From Tepidiforma sp. (GTDB lineage: Bacteria; Chloroflexota; Dehalococcoidia; Tepidiformales; Tepidiformaceae), in contig BPIE01000001.1 in assembly GCA_026003935.1 (NCBI GenBank), positions 310,001 to 374,000 on the forward strand: 64,000 nt of DNA, given 5' to 3'. Both the position numbers and the translations under genes were made by a program. Below are positions 1 through 54,940 of the stretch, one piece after another. The notes below the pieces were generated by a model. It made no database searches. It saw nothing but the letters and a program-made list of their open reading frames with translations, and was not told the origin of the DNA. Numbering within the stretch: the first letter of the stretch is position 1; each line of letters opens with the position of its first letter.

Positions 1-3000
1 TAGCGGTCGAGGAGCGATGGAAGGGCACCTTCAGACGCGGGCGCGAACGCACCTGGAACGCCCTGGGGAATGGCGACCCCAAGGGCGTCCCGGTACCGCA
101 CGGCATCTCCTGCGGGGATCCATCGCTCCTCTCCGGAAATGCGGACGGGACAAGCGCGCCCGGTGCGCGAGAGCTCCTGCAGCAGTGCTTCCGCTGGCGC
201 GGAAGGGTCGAGCCGTGCGCGGATTTCGGAATCCGCCAGGTCGCCGAGACGGCGAAGGAGGTCGTGGAGCCCATCGGCGTCTGCGGGCCGGCGGTAGTCG
301 CCCGCAAGCCCCTGCAGCTCGAGCTCGACGGCATCCACGATGTCCGGGTCAAGCATGTCGCGCAGGTCCGCCTCACCGAGGAGCTCGCGAAGCATCGCCC
401 GGTCGAGGGTGAGCGCTTGCGCCTTGCGTTCTGCGAGCGGGGCATCGCCCTCGTACATGTATGCCGCGATGTACTCGAACACCAGGGAGCGGGCGAAGGG
501 GGACGCATCGCGCACGACCGCCTCGCGCACTTCCACCTCGCGGCGTTCAATGCCGCTGAGTAGTTGTTGCAGGGCCGGGAGGTCGAAGACATCCTGGAGA
601 CATTCGCGGTACGTCTCGAGCACGATGGGGAAGGAGCCGTATTTGCTGGCAACGGCGAGCAGGTCCGCAGCACGCTGGCGCTGGAGCCAGAGCGGCGTCC
701 GGGCGCCGGGCCGACGGCGCGGCAACAGGAGTGCGCGGGCCGCGTTTTCGCGAAAGCGACCGGCGAAGAGTGCCGTGCCGCCGAGCCGTTCGATGACCAG
801 CTCCTCGACCTCGTCGGAGGGTGGCAGGAGCACCTCGACAGGAGGCGGCACCTCTGCGCCGCCGAGCCGGATTGCGATGCCGTCGTCGCTCCAGATGACA
901 TTCGCCTCGGCATAGCCGGCCTCGGCCAGTCGGGTTTCGATGGCCATCGCCCAGGGCGCATGCACTCGCCCCCCGTACGGGGAGAGTACGACGAGCCGCC
1001 AGTCGCCGAGTTCGTCGAGGTAGCGCTGCACGACAATTCTCCGGTCGGTCGGAACGTAGCCGGCAGCGCCTCGCTCGTCCCAGACGTAGCTCGCGAGGTT
1101 ACGGGCGGCGCGCCCGTCGAGGTCAGTGTTGGATTCGAGCCACCTGGCCGCCTCCGTCTCGTTCCCGAAGGATTCGAGCCGCCGTATGAGCGCTCCGACT
1201 GCCTCGCCCAGTTCGGCCGCGCGGCCGATGCCGTCACCGCGCCAGAAGGGCATCTTGCCGGGCTGACCTGGCGCCGGCGACACGATGACCCGGTCGCGGG
1301 TGATGCGCTCGATGCGCCAGGTGGTCGCGCCGAGGATGAACGTCTCGCCGGGGCGGCTTTCGTAGACCATCTCCTCGTCGAGCTCGCCGATACGCGGACC
1401 TTCTTCGCCAAGGTGGACGCCGTACAGGCCGCGGTCGGGAATCGTCCCGGCATTGACGATGGCGAGCCGTTTCGCGTCGCGGCGGGTAGAGACTATGCCC
1501 GAGTCTCGGTCCCAGGTGACCCGGGGCCGGAGCTCGGCGAACTCATCGGAGGGGTACATCCCGGCGAGCATGCCGATCACGCCCTCGAGCTGCTCCCTGG
1601 GGAGCGTCGCGAACGGGTAGCTGCGCCGGGCCATCGCGAGGAGGTCGTCGACGGTGAGGTCTTCGACCGCGCAGGCAGCGACGACCTGCTGCGCCAGGAC
1701 GTCGAGGGGATTTCGCGGCACCCGGGTCGCTTCGATGGCGCCCTCGCGCATGCGCGCGACGACGGCGGCGCACTCGAGGAGGTCGGACCGGTGCTTCGGG
1801 AAGATGCGGCCGCGGCTGATGCCGTCGACCTGGTGCCCGGCTCGGCCGACGCGCTGGAGCCCACTGGCGACACTCTTTGGCGACTCGATTTGCACCACGA
1901 GGTCGACCGCTCCCATGTCGATGCCGAGCTCCATCGAGCTGGTGCACACGAGTCCCGGCAGCTGGCCGGACTTCAGCTGCTCTTCAATCTGCAGCCGCTG
2001 CTCCCGTGAGACCGAACCGTGGTGCGCGCGGAGGAGTTCCGCACCGGCGAGCTCGTTGACACGTGATGCGACCCGCTCGGCCAGCCGGCGGTTGTTGACG
2101 AAAATCAGCGTCGAGCGGTGCTCACGGACGAGCCGGAGGATTTCGTTGTAGAACGCGGGCCAGACCGAGCTTCGCTGTTCGGGGCTGAGCTCGCTCTCGG
2201 GAATGGGGCCGGTGTAGTCGGCGGGCCTCGTCATGTCGTCGAACGGGACCACGACCTCGAGGTCCAGCGGCCGCGTGCTTCCTGCATCGACCACCCTGAC
2301 GGCCCGGTCGCCTCCGAGGTAGCGCGCAACTTCGTCGAGGGGCCGCTGCGTTGCGGAGAGCCCGATCCGCTGGAACTCACGACCGACAAGGCGCTCCAGC
2401 CGCTCCAGCGTGAGCGCGAGGTGCGCGCCGCGCTTGGTCGACGCCATGGTGTGGATTTCATCAACGATGACGGTTTCCACGGTGCGGAGGGTTTCCCGCG
2501 CCCGCGAGGTGAGCAGCAGGTAGAGCGACTCGGGGGTCGTGATAAGGATATCGGGAGGATTGCGGCGCAGGTCGTCGCGGGCGGCGGCGGGCGTATCACC
2601 AGTTCGGACACCGACGGTGATGTCCGGCTCCGGCAGGCCTTCCCGAAGTGCGGCAAGTCTCAGGCCTGCGAGCGGCGCTCGCAGGTTCCGTTCGACATCG
2701 TACGAGAGCGCCTTGAGCGGCGAGACATAGACGACCCTGACGCCTTCCCGGACCGTACGGCCGCCTCTACCTAGCGGGAGGGGCGGGCGTCGAACTAGCC
2801 TGTCGAGGCACCAAAGGAAGGCGGCGAGCGTCTTCCCGGAGCCGGTGGGGGCGAGCAGGAGCGTGTGCGCACCCGAGGCGATGGCGTCCCATCCGAGCTC
2901 CTGCGCCCGCGTAGGCGCTGCGAATGCGGATTCGAACCACGCGCGGGTCGGCGGACTGAATCGAGCGAGGATAGGTGCTTCGGGCGCGGCCATCTCGGCC

Positions 3001-3002
3001 AT
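1..3002 (-). CDS. lhr: Lhr-family ATP-dependent helicase, 3' end cut by window edge
   Basis: This is a superfamily 2 helicase of the large helicase-related (Lhr) group, which unwinds nucleic acid in DNA repair or RNA metabolism. About 1000 residues are visible and the C-terminus lies beyond the left edge. Reading the minus strand gives Walker A APTGSGKT near residues 51-58, a DEIH Walker B box near 181-184, and motif VI QRVGRAGH near residue 390. A long Lhr-core-like region follows. The start is ATG at 3002 (MAEMAAP); a second in-frame ATG at 2993 is equally possible. The gene sits 49 bp downstream of the small HxlR operon on the same strand and may be co-transcribed with it. Family assignment is firm; the biological role is inferred from the family. 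Confidence 0.9.
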   Translation of the reverse strand, partial: MAEMAAPEAPILARFSPPTRAWFESAFAAPTRAQELGWDAIASGAHTLLLAPTGSGKTLAAFLWCLDRLVRRPPLPLGRGGRTVREGVRVVYVSPLKALSYDVERNLRAPLAGLRLAALREGLPEPDITVGVRTGDTPAAARDDLRRNPPDILITTPESLYLLLTSRARETLRTVETVIVDEIHTMASTKRGAHLALTLERLERLVGREFQRIGLSATQRPLDEVARYLGGDRAVRVVDAGSTRPLDLEVVVPFDDMTRPADYTGPIPESELSPEQRSSVWPAFYNEILRLVREHRSTLIFVNNRRLAERVASRVNELAGAELLRAHHGSVSREQRLQIEEQLKSGQLPGLVCTSSMELGIDMGAVDLVVQIESPKSVASGLQRVGRAGHQVDGISRGRIFPKHRSDLLECAAVVARMREGAIEATRVPRNPLDVLAQQVVAACAVEDLTVDDLLAMARRSYPFATLPREQLEGVIGMLAGMYPSDEFAELRPRVTWDRDSGIVSTRRDAKRLAIVNAGTIPDRGLYGVHLGEEGPRIGELDEEMVYESRPGETFILGATTWRIERITRDRVIVSPAPGQPGKMPFWRGDGIGRAAELGEAVGALIRRLESFGNETEAARWLESNTDLDGRAARNLASYVWDERGAAGYVPTDRRIVVQRYLDELGDWRLVVLSPYGGRVHAPWAMAIETRLAEAGYAEANVIWSDDGIAIRLGGAEVPPPVEVLLPPSDEVEELVIERLGGTALFAGRFRENAARALLLPRRRPGARTPLWLQRQRAADLLAVASKYGSFPIVLETYRECLQDVFDLPALQQLLSGIERREVEVREAVVRDASPFARSLVFEYIAAYMYEGDAPLAERKAQALTLDRAMLRELLGEADLRDMLDPDIVDAVELELQGLAGDYRRPADADGLHDLLRRLGDLADSEIRARLDPSAPAEALLQELSRTGRACPVRISGEERWIPAGDAVRYRDALGVAIPQGVPGAFAPASEGALPSLLDR

Positions 3003-3051
3003 TGTGCCAGAATCGACGTCCGGCGCACAGATGTTCTAGTGGCCCGAAGGG

Positions 3052-3483
3052 TTACTCTTTCCGGGCAGCAGCTCGCCTGGTCGCCCTGGTTGAAGTCCGT
3101 TTCGCGGCGGAGGGAAGGTCGGTGATGAATCCGAGTCGGTGGCGCCGGGCGTCGTGCTCGGGATGGATTTCGACGCGGAAAATCGTCTGGTACGGGATAA
3201 ACACCTGCGTGGTGTGCTCATGGTCGGGGCTCGACGTTTGCAGCGCCACCCATTGGTCAGCGACACCGCTGATGCCATTCACGTAATGGGTCACGCCGTC
3301 GATGGTGGTGAGTTCGACCACCGGAACCTCGCAGTTGACCTGCGAGCAGAACGCGGCGATGGCTGGCGGGAGGACGTTCTCGAAGAAGTTGCGGTCGAAT
3401 GGGGCACCATTGCCGGTTGCTGCAGCCGCGGGAACGGCTGCTACCCCAGGAGGAAGGTAAATGACTCGGGAGGGCTGGGTCAT
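3052..3483 (-). CDS. Hypothetical protein downstream of HxlR regulator
   Basis: This 143-residue protein of unknown function has a start codon (ATG 3483) overlapping the stop of the upstream HxlR gene in an ATGA arrangement, so the two are probably translationally coupled. The N-terminus is Ala/Pro-rich (YLPPGVAAVPAAAATG). The middle contains a soluble segment with FFENVLPPAIAAFC, and the C-terminus is Arg/Lys-rich and looks disordered. No catalytic motif or membrane segment is recognised. The reading frame extends further upstream, but that part lies inside the HxlR gene, so the overlapping ATG is preferred. Confidence 0.7.
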   Translation of the reverse strand: MTQPSRVIYLPPGVAAVPAAAATGNGAPFDRNFFENVLPPAIAAFCSQVNCEVPVVELTTIDGVTHYVNGISGVADQWVALQTSSPDHEHTTQVFIPYQTIFRVEIHPEHDARRHRLGFITDLPSAAKRTSTRATRRAAARKE

Positions 3484-3947
3484 TCCGGAAGCGTAGGCTG
3501 CCGCTCGCGCCCCGGCAACCGGGCCTGTTCGCGGCCCACGATGCGGACCCGCCGCCGGGGAGCTTCCCGAGCACACGTGGGGCAGTGGTACACCACGCTG
3601 ATGCCGTGGCCGCATTCGCCATCAACGAGGGTGAGGTCGGCCTCGGCGTAGCGCTGTCCCCAATCGGCGAGGGCGCCGACCACCACACCGAGCGCGTGCC
3701 CACGGGGGGTCAGGCGGTATTCGAAGCGGCGCGGTCGGTCCTGGTACAGACGCCGCTGAACGATCGCGGCGGATTCGAGCGCGCGAAGGCGGCTGGCGAG
3801 GACCGCGGGGGGAATGCCCTCAACCGACTCGCGGAGCTCATTGAACCGCCGGCGGCCGCGCAGGAGGTCGCGGACGATGAGGAGCGTCCAGCGGTCACCG
3901 ACGAGCTGCAGGGTTGCGGCAACGGGGCAACGGACCGAGCGGTTCAC
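3480..3947 (-). CDS. HxlR-family transcriptional regulator
   Basis: This winged-helix regulator of the HxlR/MarR-like group has 155 residues. The HxlR signature is clear: CPVAATLQLVGDRWTLLIVRDL at the N-terminus, then RFNELRESVEGIPPAVLASRLRALE as recognition helix and wing, and YRLTPRGHAL. After the roughly 110-residue DNA-binding domain there is a short tail with a CGHG...CPTC cysteine/histidine cluster (residues about 111-126) that could bind a metal. That tail is unusual, since many HxlR proteins end near residue 110-120. A promoter-like TTGAAC-N17-TAGCAT lies just upstream on the same strand. The target is unknown; the coupled downstream gene or the divergent FO synthase are candidates. 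Confidence 0.88.
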   Translation of the reverse strand: MNRSVRCPVAATLQLVGDRWTLLIVRDLLRGRRRFNELRESVEGIPPAVLASRLRALESAAIVQRRLYQDRPRRFEYRLTPRGHALGVVVGALADWGQRYAEADLTLVDGECGHGISVVYHCPTCAREAPRRRVRIVGREQARLPGRERQPTLPE

Positions 3948-3974
3948 TGGTAGCCTCCGGCTATCGGTTGCGAT

Positions 3975-4003
3975 ATGCTACGCGCGCGCAGGGGTCAGTT
4001 CAA
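3975..4003 (-). promoter_or_regulatory. Candidate sigma70-type promoter for the HxlR gene
   Basis: On the minus strand, TTGAAC (4003-3998) and TAGCAT (3980-3975) are separated by 17 bp. Each hexamer matches 4 of 6 consensus bases. Transcription would start about 20 nt upstream of the HxlR start codon. Pattern match only. Confidence 0.35.
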
Positions 4004-4043
4004 GTCATGAAGTTACCCCAAGTCGGCGCGCCGGGACCCTGCC

Positions 4044-6494
4044 ATGCTCGAAGTCACCCGCGGCATCCTCCAGCGAGCACTCGACGGCGTGCTGCCGAGC
4101 GACGAGGAGGCGGTCGCCCTCGCGGACGAGACCGAACTGCAGCCGCTGCTCGAGACGGCGCAAGCGCTTCGCGACCGGGGCCACCGGAACGTCATCTCGT
4201 ATTCGCGCAAGGTGTTCATCCCGCTCACACAGCTGTGCCGGGATGTGTGCCACTACTGCACGTTTGCCCGGCCGCCACGCCCGGGAGAGCGTGCCTACCT
4301 GCTGCCAGACGAGGTGCTGGAGATCGCGCGGGCGGGAGCAGCGGCGGGCTGCCACGAAGCCCTCTTTACGCTCGGAGATAAGCCTGAGCTGCGCTACCGC
4401 GTGGCCCAGCGGGAGCTCGATGAGATGGGCTACCCATCGACCATCGCGTACCTCGCGGCGATGGCCGAACTCGTGTTCCGGGAAACGGGCCTCCTGCCCC
4501 ACGCCAACCCGGGCGTCATGACCGCCGAGGAAGTCGGGATGCTCCGCAAGGTGTCGGTGTCGCAGGGCATCATGCTGGAGAGCGTTGCGGAACGGCTCTT
4601 CACGGAGAAAGGGGCCGTGCACTACGGTTCGCCCGACAAACGGCCTTCGGTCCGTCTTGCCACGATCGCCGAGGCAGGCCGGCAGCAGGTCCCGTTTACC
4701 TCGGGCATCCTCATCGGGATAGGCGAGACCCGGCGCGAGCGCATCGAATCGCTGCTCGCGCTGCGGCGGCTGCATGCCGAGTACGGGCATATCCAGGAGA
4801 TTATCGTCCAGAATTTCCGCGCCAAGCCCGGTACGAAGATGGCCGATGCGCCGGAACCGGACCTCGAGGACCTGCTCTGGACCATCGCCATTGCCCGGGT
4901 CGTCTTCGGGGCGGAGATGAACATCCAGGCGCCGCCCAACCTGAGTTATGACGAGTATCCACGCCTCGTTGCCGCGGGGCTGAACGACTGGGGCGGCGTC
5001 TCGCCGGTGACGCCGGACCATGTGAACCCGGAGGCGCCGTGGCCTCACCTCGAGCAGCTCCGCCAGCGCACGGCCGAGTGCGGCAAAGTGCTTGTCGAAC
5101 GGCTTCCGGTCTACCCGTCGTATGCGCTGGACAGCGAGCGCTGGCAGGACCCCGCCATGCGCACGGCCGTCATCCGCAGCATCGACGCGGAAGGGTTCGC
5201 CCGGATGGACCGATGGTCGCCGGGTGACCCGGAGGTGGAGCCTCCGCCGGCCGATATTCCGCGCCGCCTGGACCGGGGTCGCGGTCTTGACACTTCGACA
5301 GCTGAAGTACGGGCCATCCTTGCCGCGAGGGAGCGCGGCGCAGACCTGACTGAAGCACAAATCGAGCGGCTCTTCCACGCCCGGGGGGATGACTACCACC
5401 TGGTCTGCGAGGCAGCGGACCGGCTCCGGAAGCAGGTGAACGGCGACACCGTCAGCTATGTGGTGAACCGGAATATCAACTATACGAACATCTGCTACTT
5501 CCGGTGCCAGTTCTGCGCCTTTGCGAAGGGGAAGCTGAGCGAAAGCCTGCGGGGCGTCCCCTATGACCTCGACCTCGAGGAAATCGTCCGCCGGGCGCGT
5601 GAAGCCTGGGAGCGCGGCGCGACCGAGGTGTGCATGCAGGGGGGCATCCACCCCGAGTACACCGGGGAGACCTACCTCCGCATCCTGCGGGCAGTGAAGA
5701 CCGCGGTCCCGGGGCTGCACATCCACGCCTTCTCGCCACTCGAAGTTTCCCAGGGCGCGGAGACGTTGGGTATCACGGTCCGAGAGTTCCTGCTGCGATT
5801 GCGGGAGGCCGGCCTGGGCACACTCCCCGGTACTGCGGCGGAGGTGCTGGACGATGAGGTGCGCGTGACGCTGTGCCCGGACAAGCTGAGCACCGACCAG
5901 TGGCTGCGGGTCGTCGAGGAGGCGCACCGGGTCGGGTTCCGAACGACGTCCACGATCATGTACGGGCACATCGATCGCCCGCGAAACTGGGCGCGCCATC
6001 TGGTGGCGCTGCGCGAGCTGCAGAAGCGAACGGGCGGCATCACCGAGTTCGTACCGCTTCCCTTCGTTCACATGGAAGCGCCGATCTACCTGAAGGGCCG
6101 GGCGCGTCCAGGGCCGACATTCCGCGAGGCGGTGCTCATGCATGCCGTGGCGCGGCTGGCACTCCACCCGTACATCACCAACATCCAGGTTTCCTGGGTG
6201 AAGATGGGGGTCCCGGGAGTCCGGGCCTGCCTCGATGCCGGGGTCAACGACATGGGTGGCACCCTCATGAATGAGAGCATCTCGCGCGCCGCCGGCGCCG
6301 GGTTTGGGCAGGAGTTGCCACCTGAAGAAATGGAACGGGTCATCCGGGAGATGGGGCGGACGCCTCGACAACGCACCACGACCTACGGGACTGCACCGGA
6401 AGAGCGAGTCATCGCGTCGTTCAGCGCGGCTCCGCTGACACCGGTGGTGCTGACCCCGGTCAAGAAGTACGAACGGGTCGGAGCATCGAGCTAG
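4044..6494 (+). CDS. fbiC: FO synthase, fused CofG-CofH (FbiC type), radical SAM
   Basis: This bifunctional 7,8-didemethyl-8-hydroxy-5-deazariboflavin synthase makes the deazaflavin chromophore of cofactor F420 from tyrosine and a ribityl-uracil. It has 816 residues, the length of actinobacterial FbiC. Two radical-SAM modules are visible. The CofG half has CRDVCHYC with cysteines at 65, 69 and 72. The CofH half has CYFRCQFC with cysteines at 484, 488 and 491, so both CxxxCxxC cluster motifs are intact. In archaea and many bacteria the two halves are separate genes. No strong ribosome-binding site precedes the ATG. The gene converges on an F420-type LLM oxidoreductase, and the two stop codons overlap. 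This supports F420 metabolism in the organism. Confidence 0.96.
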
Positions 6495-51131: not shown

Positions 51132-52904
51132 TCAGAGACGGACGAGGCGCACGTTGTAGATGCCGTCGATGGCTTCGACCTGCTCGAGCTGTTCCGGCGA
51201 GGGCTCTTCGTCGACGGCGATCAGCATGATCGCCCGGCCCCGGCGTGCGCGGCGGCCGACCTGCATGGATTGGATGTTGATATCGAACTGACCCAGCAGG
51301 GTGCCGACGCGCCCAATCATGCCCGGGCGGTCTTCGTTATCGCAGACGATGATGCACATTCCGCGCTCGGGCGCGATCTCGACGTCGAGACCGTTGATGA
51401 GCACGATGCGGGGCTGACCACGCTCGACAGTGCCGGAGACGGCGACTTCGGCTTCGGACGTTTTGACGCGCACACTGACGAGGTTGAGGAAGACTTCGTG
51501 CGAGGCACGGGTCGTTTCGCGGATGTCCCATCCTCGGCCAGCTGCGATGAGGTGCGCGTTGACGATGTTGACATTCTCTTCGCTGATGGGGCGCAGGAGC
51601 CCTCGAATAACGGCTGCGCGGAGGGGCGTGGTGTCGTGTTCGGTGATTTCGCCGTAGTACTCGATGTCGATAGCTTCGAGCTTGCCCCTGACGAGCTGGG
51701 TGGCGACCATGCCGAGCTGCTCGGCCATGCCCATGTACGGCGCGATGACCTGGAGCGCTTCCGGCGCGAGGAGGGGAGCGTTTACCGCGTAGCGCGCGGG
51801 GCGGCCTTCCAGCAGGTCGACGATTTGCTCAGCGACGTCGATGGCGACGCGCTCCTGGGCCTCTGCGGTGGAGGCACCAAGATGGGGGGTGGTGATGATG
51901 CGGGGGTCGCCGAGGAGCGGGTTGTCGGGCGGCGGGGGCTCAGACGTGAACACATCGACAGCTGCGCCGGCGACCTTGCCGGAGCGAACCGCCTCGGCGA
52001 GCGCCGCCTCGTCGATGATGCCGCCCCGGGCGACGTTGATGATGCGGACGCCGTCCTTCATGCGGGCAATTTCGGGGGCACCGATCATGCCCTGCGTAGA
52101 CGCCGTCAGGGGGGGGTGGACGGAGATGAAGTCGGAGAGCATGAGGAGCTGCTCGAAATCGACCGATTCGACGCCGAGGGCACGGGCGCGCTCGACCGGA
52201 ACGAAGGGGTCGACGGCGAGGACGCGCATCTCCATCGCGACGGCCCGGCGGGCTACCTCTGAGCCGATTTTGCCAAGTCCAACGATGCCCAGCGTCTTGC
52301 CGCGGACTTCAGTGCCGACGTAGCTCTTGCGGTCCCACTTGCCGGAACGCATGGAGGCATCGGCCTGGGGTATGTGACGGGCGAGCGCCATGAGCAGGGC
52401 GATGGTGTGCTCTGCTGCAGCAACGGTGTTGCCCTGGGGCGCGTTGACAACGACCACGCCCCGCTCCGTCGCCGCGTCCAGGTCGATGTTGTCGACGCCG
52501 ACGCCGGCTCGTCCGATGACCTGGAGCTTGGCTGCAGCCTCGATAACAGGGCGCGTGACTTTCGTCTCGCTGCGAACGACGAGGGCCTCGTAATCCGGGA
52601 TGATGGCGATGAGCGAATCCTGGGGGAGCCCGGTACGGACCTCGACATCGGCGACCCGGCGCAGGAGCTCGATGCCCTCGGGCGCTACCGGGTCAGCGAT
52701 GAGGACGCGGGGGCGGCGCTGTTCGGTCATGGGGTGCAGCTTCTCCTTCAGCGTTGCGAGCGCAAGTTCGATGGCGGGCGGGATGCGGGTTTTGCCGGAC
52801 TCCCAGCGGCTGATGGTGCCCTGGTCGACCCCGAGCGCCTCGGCGAGGGCGCTCTGCGAGAGGCCGAGGGCGGCTCGTTCGGCAGTGAACTGTTCGGGCG
52901 TCAT
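51132..52904 (-). CDS. serA: XRE helix-turn-helix fused to D-3-phosphoglycerate dehydrogenase
   Basis: This 590-residue fusion begins with an XRE-type DNA-binding domain (residues 1-55: [20 protein letters not shown], then [13 protein letters not shown]). It runs without a stop into a full type I phosphoglycerate dehydrogenase starting near residue 59. PGDH features are [11 protein letters not shown], Rossmann GLGKIG (209-214), [10 protein letters not shown] with catalytic Arg, TPHLGAST with His, an intervening domain, and a C-terminal ACT domain (about 516-590; [15 protein letters not shown]), which binds serine in this family. It makes 3-phosphohydroxypyruvate for serine synthesis. The reading frame was checked codon by codon across the junction. 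An internal ATG at 52730 with AGGAG 12 bp upstream could also give plain SerA. Confidence 0.93.
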
Positions 52905-52910
52905 GCTGCC

Positions 52911-52950
52911 ATGCAGTATGCATGACAGGGCCCGTCTATGCAAACTGCAT
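52911..52950 (-). promoter_or_regulatory. Two ATGCA-N3-TGCAT operators over the HTH-serA promoter
   Basis: Two palindromes with identical half-sites, ATGCA-N3-TGCAT, lie at 52911-52923 and 52938-52950 with centres 27 bp apart. On the minus strand the distal one overlaps a -35-like TTTGCA (52944-52939). The proximal one overlaps a -10-like CATACT (52920-52915), with 18 bp between them. Transcription would start only a few bases before the ATG at 52904, which has no Shine-Dalgarno. The distal site is nested in a perfect 15-bp inverted repeat (52928-52942 and 52946-52960) that could also end the upstream aminotransferase transcript. Confidence 0.6.
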
Positions 52951-52998
52951 AGACGGGCCCCGCAGGTGAACGGAAGGGCCAGCCAGAGCCGGGGCGAC

Positions 52999-54087
52999 TT
53001 ATACGCGCACCCCGGCTTCGGCGAGGAGCTTCTCCACGACGTCGAGCGCCTCGGCCACTTCGGCCTGCTGGACCCAGCCAAGGTGGCCGACGCGGAAGAT
53101 TTTTCCCTCGAGCTTGCCCTGGCCGCCGCCGAGAACGACGCCGAACTCTTCGCGGGCGCGGCGGCTTATCGCCTTGCCGTCGACGCCTTCGGGCCACCAG
53201 ACAGCCGTGACGGTGTTGGAGGCGAAGCGCTCGTCAACGGGGACGAGCTTGAGGCCCATGGCTTTGACCCGCTCGCGGGTGTAGCTGGCGATGGCTTCGT
53301 GGCGGGTGAAAATGGCCTCAAGGCCCTCGGCGCGCATGAGCTCAAATGCCTTGTCGAGGGCGTAGTAGACGGACATTGCGGGCGTCCAGGGGTTCTGGAG
53401 CTTTGCGAGCGAGTCGCGGGTTTTCGCGGCGTCGAAGTAGAAGCGGGGCATTTTGGCTTCGGCATTGGCGGCCCATGCCCGTTCGCTCATGTACACGAAG
53501 GCGAGTCCCGGCGGAACCATCCAGCCCTTCTGGGAACCGCTGACGACGACGTCGAGGCTCCAGCGCTCGACGGGGCAGGGGATGGAGCTCATGCTGCTGA
53601 CGGCGTCGACGAGGATGAGGCGGTCGCGGGCGCGGACCTCACGGGCGATGGCCTCGAGGGGATTGGTCACGCCCGTCGAAGTCTCGTTGTGGGTCACGAG
53701 CACGGCTTTAATCGCCGGGTCATCGTCGAGCATGCGCGCGATGACGGCCGGGTCGGCGGCTTCGCCCCATTCAGTCGCGTAGCTGACGACGTCGGCGCCG
53801 TACGCCTTCGCGATGGCCCGGAAGCGGTCGCCGAAGGAGCCGATGGAGACCGAGAGGACGCGGTCGCCGGGGCTGAGGGTGTTGACCACGGCGACTTCGA
53901 GGCCGCCGGTACCGGACGTCGTGAAGGAGAGGACGTCGGTCGAGCTGCCGAAGACCCAGTTGAGGCCGTCGGTCACGCGGCGGAGGATTTGGGCGAATTC
54001 CGGGCCCCGGTGATTCATCATTTGCTGTGCGCCTGCCGCGAGCACCTCGTCGGGGCAGGGTGTCGGGCCAGGAATGCGCAGGTTCAC
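52999..54087 (-). CDS. Class V aminotransferase (serine-pyruvate / alanine-glyoxylate type)
   Basis: This PLP aminotransferase has 362 residues from GTG 54087, which has GGAG 6 bp upstream (ATG 54129 or 54135 would add 14-16 residues). N-terminus NLRIPGPTPCPDEVL, HNETSTGV, and the PLP lysine in VVSGSQKGWMVPPGLAF. It lies 94 bp upstream of HTH-serA on the same strand. In Thermotoga and several archaea a class V aminotransferase paired with a phosphoglycerate dehydrogenase is thought to serve serine formation, so it may act as the phosphoserine or serine aminotransferase here. Confidence 0.9.
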   Translation of the reverse strand: MNLRIPGPTPCPDEVLAAGAQQMMNHRGPEFAQILRRVTDGLNWVFGSSTDVLSFTTSGTGGLEVAVVNTLSPGDRVLSVSIGSFGDRFRAIAKAYGADVVSYATEWGEAADPAVIARMLDDDPAIKAVLVTHNETSTGVTNPLEAIAREVRARDRLILVDAVSSMSSIPCPVERWSLDVVVSGSQKGWMVPPGLAFVYMSERAWAANAEAKMPRFYFDAAKTRDSLAKLQNPWTPAMSVYYALDKAFELMRAEGLEAIFTRHEAIASYTRERVKAMGLKLVPVDERFASNTVTAVWWPEGVDGKAISRRAREEFGVVLGGGQGKLEGKIFRVGHLGWVQQAEVAEALDVVEKLLAEAGVRV

Positions 54088-54174
54088 GGTCGTCTCCGGG
54101 AAGTGGTGTTCTCCATCGTCAGCGGTCATCCGCACTGGGTCAATGGAGGATGCGGCGCGGGCCGAACGGTAGAT

Positions 54175-54235: not shown

Positions 54236-54265
54236 TTGACCCGCGACGCTTCCCGGGCATATAGT
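54236..54265 (+). promoter_or_regulatory. Promoter of rex
   Basis: TTGACC (54236-54241), an 18-bp spacer and TATAGT (54260-54265) make a good sigma70-type promoter, with a start near 54272. A TTCACAA (54284-54290) matches one half of the Rex operator consensus, suggesting weak autoregulation. Confidence 0.65.
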
Positions 54266-54298
54266 CCGGCGAAAGTTACGGATTTCACAACCCCCGCC

Positions 54299-54940
54299 AT
54301 GACGCTCGAGATCCCGGAAGTCGTCATCAACCGTCTGCCTGTTTACGCGCGGGCGCTGGCGGAGCTGGCTGCGCGCGGGGAGACGGTCGTGAGCTCGCAG
54401 GCGCTGGGTGAACTGCTGGATGTGACCCCGGCGCAAATTCGGAAGGACCTGAGCTACTTTGGGCGATTTGGGAAGCAGGGCCGCGGGTACAACGTGCAGG
54501 GGCTGCTGGCAAAGCTTCGGGAGATTCTCGGCATCGACCGCCAGTGGCGGGTGTGTCTCATCGGCGTGGGGCGGCTGGGCCAGGCCATCGCCGAGTATGG
54601 GGGCTTCGGACCGCAGGGGTTCCATATCGTCGCTGCCTTCGATGCGAACCCAGAGATCGTCGGGCGCGAGGTGGGCGGCGTGGTGGTCCGCCATATCGAC
54701 GAGCTGGACGACTACCTCCGGGCGAACCGTGTGGATATCGGCATCGTGGCGGTCCCGGCCGCTGAGGCGCAATCGGTGGTGGACCGGCTCGTTGCCGCGA
54801 ACATCAAGGCGATTCTCAACTACGCGCCGATCACGGCGCACGCGCCCCGCGACGTGGTCATCCGGCACATCGACCCGGTGCTTTCGATGCAGAGCATGAC
54901 CTTTTACATCAAGCGTGCCGAGACTGGCGGGGCAAAGTAG
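54299..54940 (+). CDS. rex: Redox-sensing transcriptional repressor Rex
   Basis: This 213-residue repressor senses the NADH/NAD+ ratio and controls fermentation and respiration genes. The N-terminal winged helix contains VVSSQALGELLDVTPAQIRKDLSYFG and GKQGRGYNV, the C-terminal Rossmann domain begins VCLIGVGRLGQAIAEY, and the family ending SMQSMTFYI is present. The ATG at 54299 is used; the open frame before it overlaps the promoter. NADH rises when electron acceptors are short, so Rex would tell the cell to switch metabolism. Confidence 0.95.
   Translation: MTLEIPEVVINRLPVYARALAELAARGETVVSSQALGELLDVTPAQIRKDLSYFGRFGKQGRGYNVQGLLAKLREILGIDRQWRVCLIGVGRLGQAIAEYGGFGPQGFHIVAAFDANPEIVGREVGGVVVRHIDELDDYLRANRVDIGIVAVPAAEAQSVVDRLVAANIKAILNYAPITAHAPRDVVIRHIDPVLSMQSMTFYIKRAETGGAK

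Follow-up and report, generated by a model that had tools for sequence, protein, structure and literature searches.

Phosphoglycerate dehydrogenase (SerA) is the enzyme that opens serine synthesis. The SerA encoded in the window, by which is meant the whole 64,000-nucleotide stretch of Tepidiforma DNA that was analysed, carries an XRE-type helix-turn-helix (HTH) at its N-terminus, and we propose that the fused protein is a dedicated repressor with a single target, its own promoter, whose action is diluted by a form of the enzyme that lacks the HTH (probability about 0.78). Four parts of this model can be read directly from the genomes compared, namely the fusion itself, a pair of operators, the restriction of these operators to one promoter, and a conserved internal start. 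The next sections discuss each of them together with the readings that compete for the same evidence.

Architecture of the HTH-SerA fusion

The gene and its domains are as follows.

51132 to 52904, minus strand: HTH-SerA fusion gene, 590 aa, with full-length homologues in 21 of the 38 family genomes
52740 to 52904, minus strand: XRE-type HTH, residues 1-55 (PF01381, AlphaFold2 models, dN/dS of 0.12)
52716 to 52739, minus strand: variable and flexible linker, residues 56-63, with an invariant Met59 (pLDDT, alignment)
51135 to 52715, minus strand: Type I phosphoglycerate dehydrogenase with catalytic, NAD, ASB and ACT domains (TIGR01327, structure matches)

The initial annotation described a 590-aa reading frame in which an XRE HTH is joined in frame to a complete SerA, and this description is borne out, as the junction contains neither a stop nor a frameshift. 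In profile searches, PF01381 (HTH_3) matches residues 9-43 of the fusion with an E value of 2.4e-10 and 40.7 bits against a cut-off of 23, which places the N-terminal domain in the XRE/HTH_3 family. The TIGR01327 profile of phosphoglycerate dehydrogenase is matched over its full length by residues 66-590, with 672.6 bits against a cut-off of 454, and the SerA body contains both the PGDH_inter (ASB, PF19304) and the ACT (PF01842, E value of 3e-13) domains, so that the enzyme belongs to the Type I phosphoglycerate dehydrogenases. Residues R293, E322 and H341, which we take to be the catalytic Arg, Glu and His of the enzyme, are kept in all 47 aligned SerA sequences.

The AlphaFold2 model of the fusion, computed as a monomer, has a mean pLDDT of 89.9 and shows four helices in the HTH (residues 3-13, 17-24, 28-36 and 43-55), followed by a disordered linker at residues 57-62, for which the pLDDT is below 50. 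The best solved structures matching the SerA body are those of the Mycobacterium tuberculosis enzyme (3ddn, 3dc2 and 1ygy). A longer in-frame extension from the TTG at 53081 was rejected, as the added codons cover nothing but the operators and the tail of the preceding gene, and a second full-length SerA in the same genome was also ruled out, since the other matches are shorter dehydrogenases of 34-42% identity devoid of the ACT part.

Distribution and conservation

Homologue searches found HTH-SerA in 21 of the 38 genomes of the family to which Tepidiforma belongs, distributed over 11 of its 18 genera. No fusion turned up in some 355 further genomes of the class Dehalococcoidia, nor, family members apart, among 400 genomes sampled from the phylum, a set that overlaps in part with the class sample. 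Beyond the phylum Chloroflexota, the search consisted of a single pattern-based scan, which leaves room for independent fusions elsewhere. The possibility raised at the outset, that all homologues begin near residue 59 and lack the HTH, therefore fails for 21 of the 38 family members and holds outside the family.

Across the 20 complete fused N-termini, 22 of the 65 alignment columns of the HTH part are invariant, and the identity of the HTH across the family ranges from 58 to 92%. None of the fused genomes has a stop or a frameshift between the HTH and SerA, and the linker, which varies in both sequence and length, changes its length by whole codons only. The pooled dN/dS within Tepidiforma is 0.12 for HTH residues 1-45, 0 for residues 46-55, 0.21 for the linker and 0.035 for SerA; the HTH is thus under purifying selection within this genus. 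Because homology and purifying selection both begin at the HTH Met, an artefact of start-codon choice is ruled out.

Twin operators at the promoter

The region preceding the fusion gene contains three features.

52938 to 52950, minus strand: operator 1, ATGCAGTTTGCAT, whose end TTGCAT (52943-52938) occupies the -35 position
52911 to 52923, minus strand: operator 2, ATGCATACTGCAT, in which CATACT (52920-52915) occupies the -10 position at a distance of 17 bp from the -35
52928 to 52960, minus strand: perfect inverted repeat (arms of 15 bp) enclosing operator 1, a hairpin

Two 13-bp palindromes of the form ATGCA-N3-TGCAT stand upstream of all 20 fused loci analysed and of a 21st, in genome G011, with a start-to-start spacing of 26-28 bp, and 2-6 bp separate operator 2 from the HTH start codon. 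Among 37 genomes searched, the exact pair is present in 14, once in each and always at the promoter of the serA fusion. Neither the family members that lack the HTH nor 14 genomes from other families contain it. The fused genomes that gave no exact match either lie outside the 37 or differ by one base (ATGCG) in operator 1. Outside open reading frames, the single palindrome occurs in six Tepidiforma genomes only as the two promoter copies, and the reversed control pattern gave zero matches. Two of these genomes (G001 and G004) contain one extra palindrome each; both lie inside open reading frames and look like chance occurrences, for which reason a regulon extending beyond serA was ruled out.

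The right half of operator 1, TTGCAT, on the -35 side, never changes, and the left half reads ATGCG in three lineages. The middle of operator 2 always conforms to CANNNT (CATACT, CAAAAT, CACAAT, CAGAAT, CATAAT or CATTCT), and the distance between TTGCAT and CANNNT is 16-18 bp, as expected for -35 and -10 boxes. These promoter boxes were assigned by eye, with TTGCAT holding three of the six consensus -35 bases, and strict scans for consensus promoters and terminators found none at the locus. Such a poor match to the consensus is what would be expected if the HTH activated its own promoter instead of repressing it, but operator 2 lies over the presumed -10 box and 2-6 bp from the start codon, where a bound protein normally blocks the polymerase, which makes activation improbable.

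The HTH ATG is found 6-10 nt past the putative -10 box, near the presumed transcription start, and has no Shine-Dalgarno sequence before it; this position suggests that the mRNA is leaderless or near-leaderless. Because the HTH is built into the enzyme and matching sites were found only at its own promoter, direct control of its gene by HTH-SerA is very probable. The view that an enzyme with a DNA-binding domain acts here on its own gene, already put forward in the initial annotation, thus finds strong support in twin palindromes that are linked to the fusion and exclusive to its promoter.

The outer arms of the inverted repeat around operator 1 vary between species, but about half of the fused loci preserve their complementarity, as a hairpin would require, and this repeat may end the transcript of the aminotransferase gene located upstream. 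A separate G+C-rich hairpin is present further upstream in some loci (L095 and L096).

Proposed DNA recognition by the HTH

By sequence, the closest relative of the HTH is the 434 repressor, and its closest fold relatives are Aca2, Aca10, HigA2, MqsA, restriction controller proteins and POU-specific domains, with Z scores of about 7-10 that denote likeness at the level of the fold only. The 434 and P22 c2 repressors share this fold. A profile alignment of HTH residues 3-36 with residues 13-52 of Oct-1 brings the invariant Q28 and R33 onto Gln44 and Arg49. The site bound by POU-specific domains is ATGC, in which Arg49 makes contact with the G-C pair (PMC9943670, PMC4720428). On this alignment, Q28 and R33 would read the ATGCA half-site as POU domains read ATGC, an agreement that was not built into the comparison.

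TIGR03830 (MqsA) is one of the better HTH-family matches, limited to positions 66-125 with 35.9 bits against a cut-off of 61.8, and membership of the MqsA antitoxin family was ruled out because the full profile, with its N-terminal zinc domain, is not matched. A similar XRE HTH is found in other Dehalococcoidia (L174, positions 1561-5120, and L175) at the N-terminus of a SNF2-type helicase of about 1187 aa, which in L174 also has a NOV_C domain; these HTH-helicases are possibly defence proteins.

A probable second start at Met59

Two further features are located around the junction of the HTH and SerA.

52728 to 52730, minus strand: internal ATG (Met59), invariant, probable second start giving a plain SerA of 532 aa
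52743 to 52748, minus strand: AAGGAG, Shine-Dalgarno-like, inside the end of the HTH and 12 nt before the Met59 codon

Although the linker is the least conserved stretch of the protein, all 20 aligned fused genes, and G011 as well, have Met59. GGAG, GAGG or AGGA occurs within Shine-Dalgarno range of Met59 in 20 of 20 genes (21 of 21 with G011), compared with 16 of 284 for the other Met codons of the same genes; the shared descent of the genes means that these are not independent observations, but the difference is large. The motif is kept despite changes in the amino acids that it encodes (Lys-Glu, Arg-Glu, Glu-Glu or Gln-Glu). In the close relatives without the fusion, SerA starts at the equivalent Met in four of six cases, and otherwise at a nearby ATG or GTG.

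The initial annotation had named exclusive translation from 52730 as the alternative that would overturn its proposal, and this alternative is supported in one respect, the conservation of the start, but not in the other, its being the sole start. If only plain SerA were made, with the HTH stretch a remnant or an annotation artefact, the conserved internal ATG with its Shine-Dalgarno-like motif would be explained, as would the want of such a motif at the upstream ATG. The HTH, however, is under purifying selection, keeps its 58-92% identity across the family and coincides with the operators, and this reading is therefore highly improbable. Instead, the conservation of both starts suggests that the locus probably makes both HTH-SerA and plain SerA, the latter as an additional product.

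Gene neighbourhood and history

The gene next upstream takes the same direction.

52999 to 54135, minus strand: class V aminotransferase, next upstream of serA, which it adjoins in the fused and in most unfused relatives

In most unfused relatives, including members of the basal unfused genus, serA begins a few bases from the stop codon of the aminotransferase, and no operators are present. The enzyme is a candidate for the serine or phosphoserine aminotransferase of the lineage. It resembles BhcA, an aspartate-glyoxylate aminotransferase, at half the cut-off score. The divergent gene of a Rex redox-sensing repressor (54236-54940) adjoins the aminotransferase-serA pair.

On the SerA tree, the fusion label needs five changes, at least three of which are forced by well-supported branches, and fused and unfused sequences appear as sisters in the pairs L101/L109 (support 100/97) and L103/L107 (96/92). 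The simplest reading is probably a single gain of a cassette, comprising the HTH and the promoter, between the two genes, followed by several clean losses that restored the operon. Because the HTH was apparently lost several times, it is not essential.

The serine site and the possible signal

The serine contacts of the M. tuberculosis phosphoglycerate dehydrogenase are Tyr461, Asp463, Asn481 and Arg501 (PMC6300728). Asp463 and Asn481 correspond to D525 and N543 of the fusion, both invariant in the 47 aligned SerA, whereas Tyr461 is replaced by Asn and Arg501 by Ala. The ASB anion site is mostly changed as well, with Arg446, His447 and Arg451 not kept. As not all serine-sensitive enzymes share these residues, the mismatch neither makes nor breaks membership of Type I. 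Judged from an intact ACT domain with a partly conserved serine site, serine is a plausible, weakly supported signal.

One possible mechanism is co-repression by serine, in which serine bound at the ACT interface would fix the tetramer in a state in which both operators are held by two HTH pairs, and inhibition and repression would arise from one site. The intact ACT domain and the invariance of D525 and N543 agree with it, and the number of operators fits the two HTH pairs that a tetramer would carry; the replacements at Tyr461 and Arg501 do not, and some enzymes with ACT domains are unresponsive to serine (PMC6300728). On balance, co-repression by serine stands not far short of an even chance. 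Another possibility, which we hold tentatively, is negative autoregulation devoid of any metabolite input, where the HTH would count SerA molecules and SerA would serve as carrier and oligomerisation scaffold. This would account for self-operators that are exclusive, for a flexible linker that separates the HTH from the enzyme, for serine and ASB anion sites of which only part is kept, and for the fact that residue 79 is the sole fixed SerA difference that marks the fused proteins. However, a separate small repressor would suffice for this task, yet no fused lineage splits the HTH from SerA, and an allosteric enzyme is a natural sensor.

Proposed mechanism

In the model of a self-repressing enzyme diluted by its shorter form, HTH pairs carried by the SerA oligomer would bind both ATGCA-N3-TGCAT palindromes, and the bound enzyme would cover the -35 and -10 boxes, shutting out RNA polymerase and limiting the enzyme level. 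Translation of this mRNA from Met59 would give SerA without the HTH, and the number of HTH pairs available would depend on the mixing of long and short chains in the oligomers. Repression would be tuned by the effector state of the SerA body, with serine at the ACT domain as first candidate, and substrate, NAD(H) or enzyme concentration as others. Repression, the use of both starts, the mixed oligomers and the signal are the steps that we infer. An extended version, in which a single gene forms a complete circuit with two starts, mixed tetramers, serine at the ACT domain acting on both activity and expression, and the ratio of starts setting the gain, is rather doubtful.

Enzyme, operator pair and second start would then form one compact unit, a natural experiment on the way in which enzymes take up gene regulation and the reasons for which they give it up. 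As HTH-SerA apparently has a single target, it is easy to test.

Comparison with known systems

Phosphoglycerate dehydrogenase is near-universal and much studied, and searches of open-licence papers yielded no form of it with a DNA-binding domain of its own and no HTH-SerA regulator, in line with the initial annotation, which knew of none. The paper on Tepidiforma physiology does not mention serine or SerA. The fusion shares with M. tuberculosis SerA (1ygy/3dc2) complete catalytic, NAD, ASB and ACT domains, at about 41% identity in the structure alignment, but the mycobacterial enzyme has no DNA-binding domain and differs in part of the serine and ASB anion sites.

The promoter of MqsA itself carries two AACCT-N3-AGGTT sites, to which MqsA binds (PMC4894380). 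Its C-terminal HTH has the same fold as that of HTH-SerA, and both systems have two 5-3-5 palindromes at their own promoter, with AACCT as the half-site of MqsA and ATGCA as the putative half-site of HTH-SerA. Unlike MqsA, HTH-SerA has no zinc domain and no toxin partner, and its HTH, unlike those of MqsA, 434, P22 c2 and Aca2, is joined to an enzyme.

PutA, BirA and NadR are trigger enzymes, that is, metabolic enzymes with their own DNA-binding domain that act on a gene of their pathway. HTH-SerA likewise has an HTH fused to an enzyme and, by genome comparison, a specific site at its own promoter, and an enzyme that regulates itself through a fused HTH is a known kind. As far as the open-licence papers searched show, the new elements are the HTH on SerA, the layout of twin operators and the nested start. 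HTH-SerA thus differs from PutA, BirA and NadR in its enzyme and in its HTH family, as well as in its apparently single target and in the conserved internal start for the domain-less enzyme.
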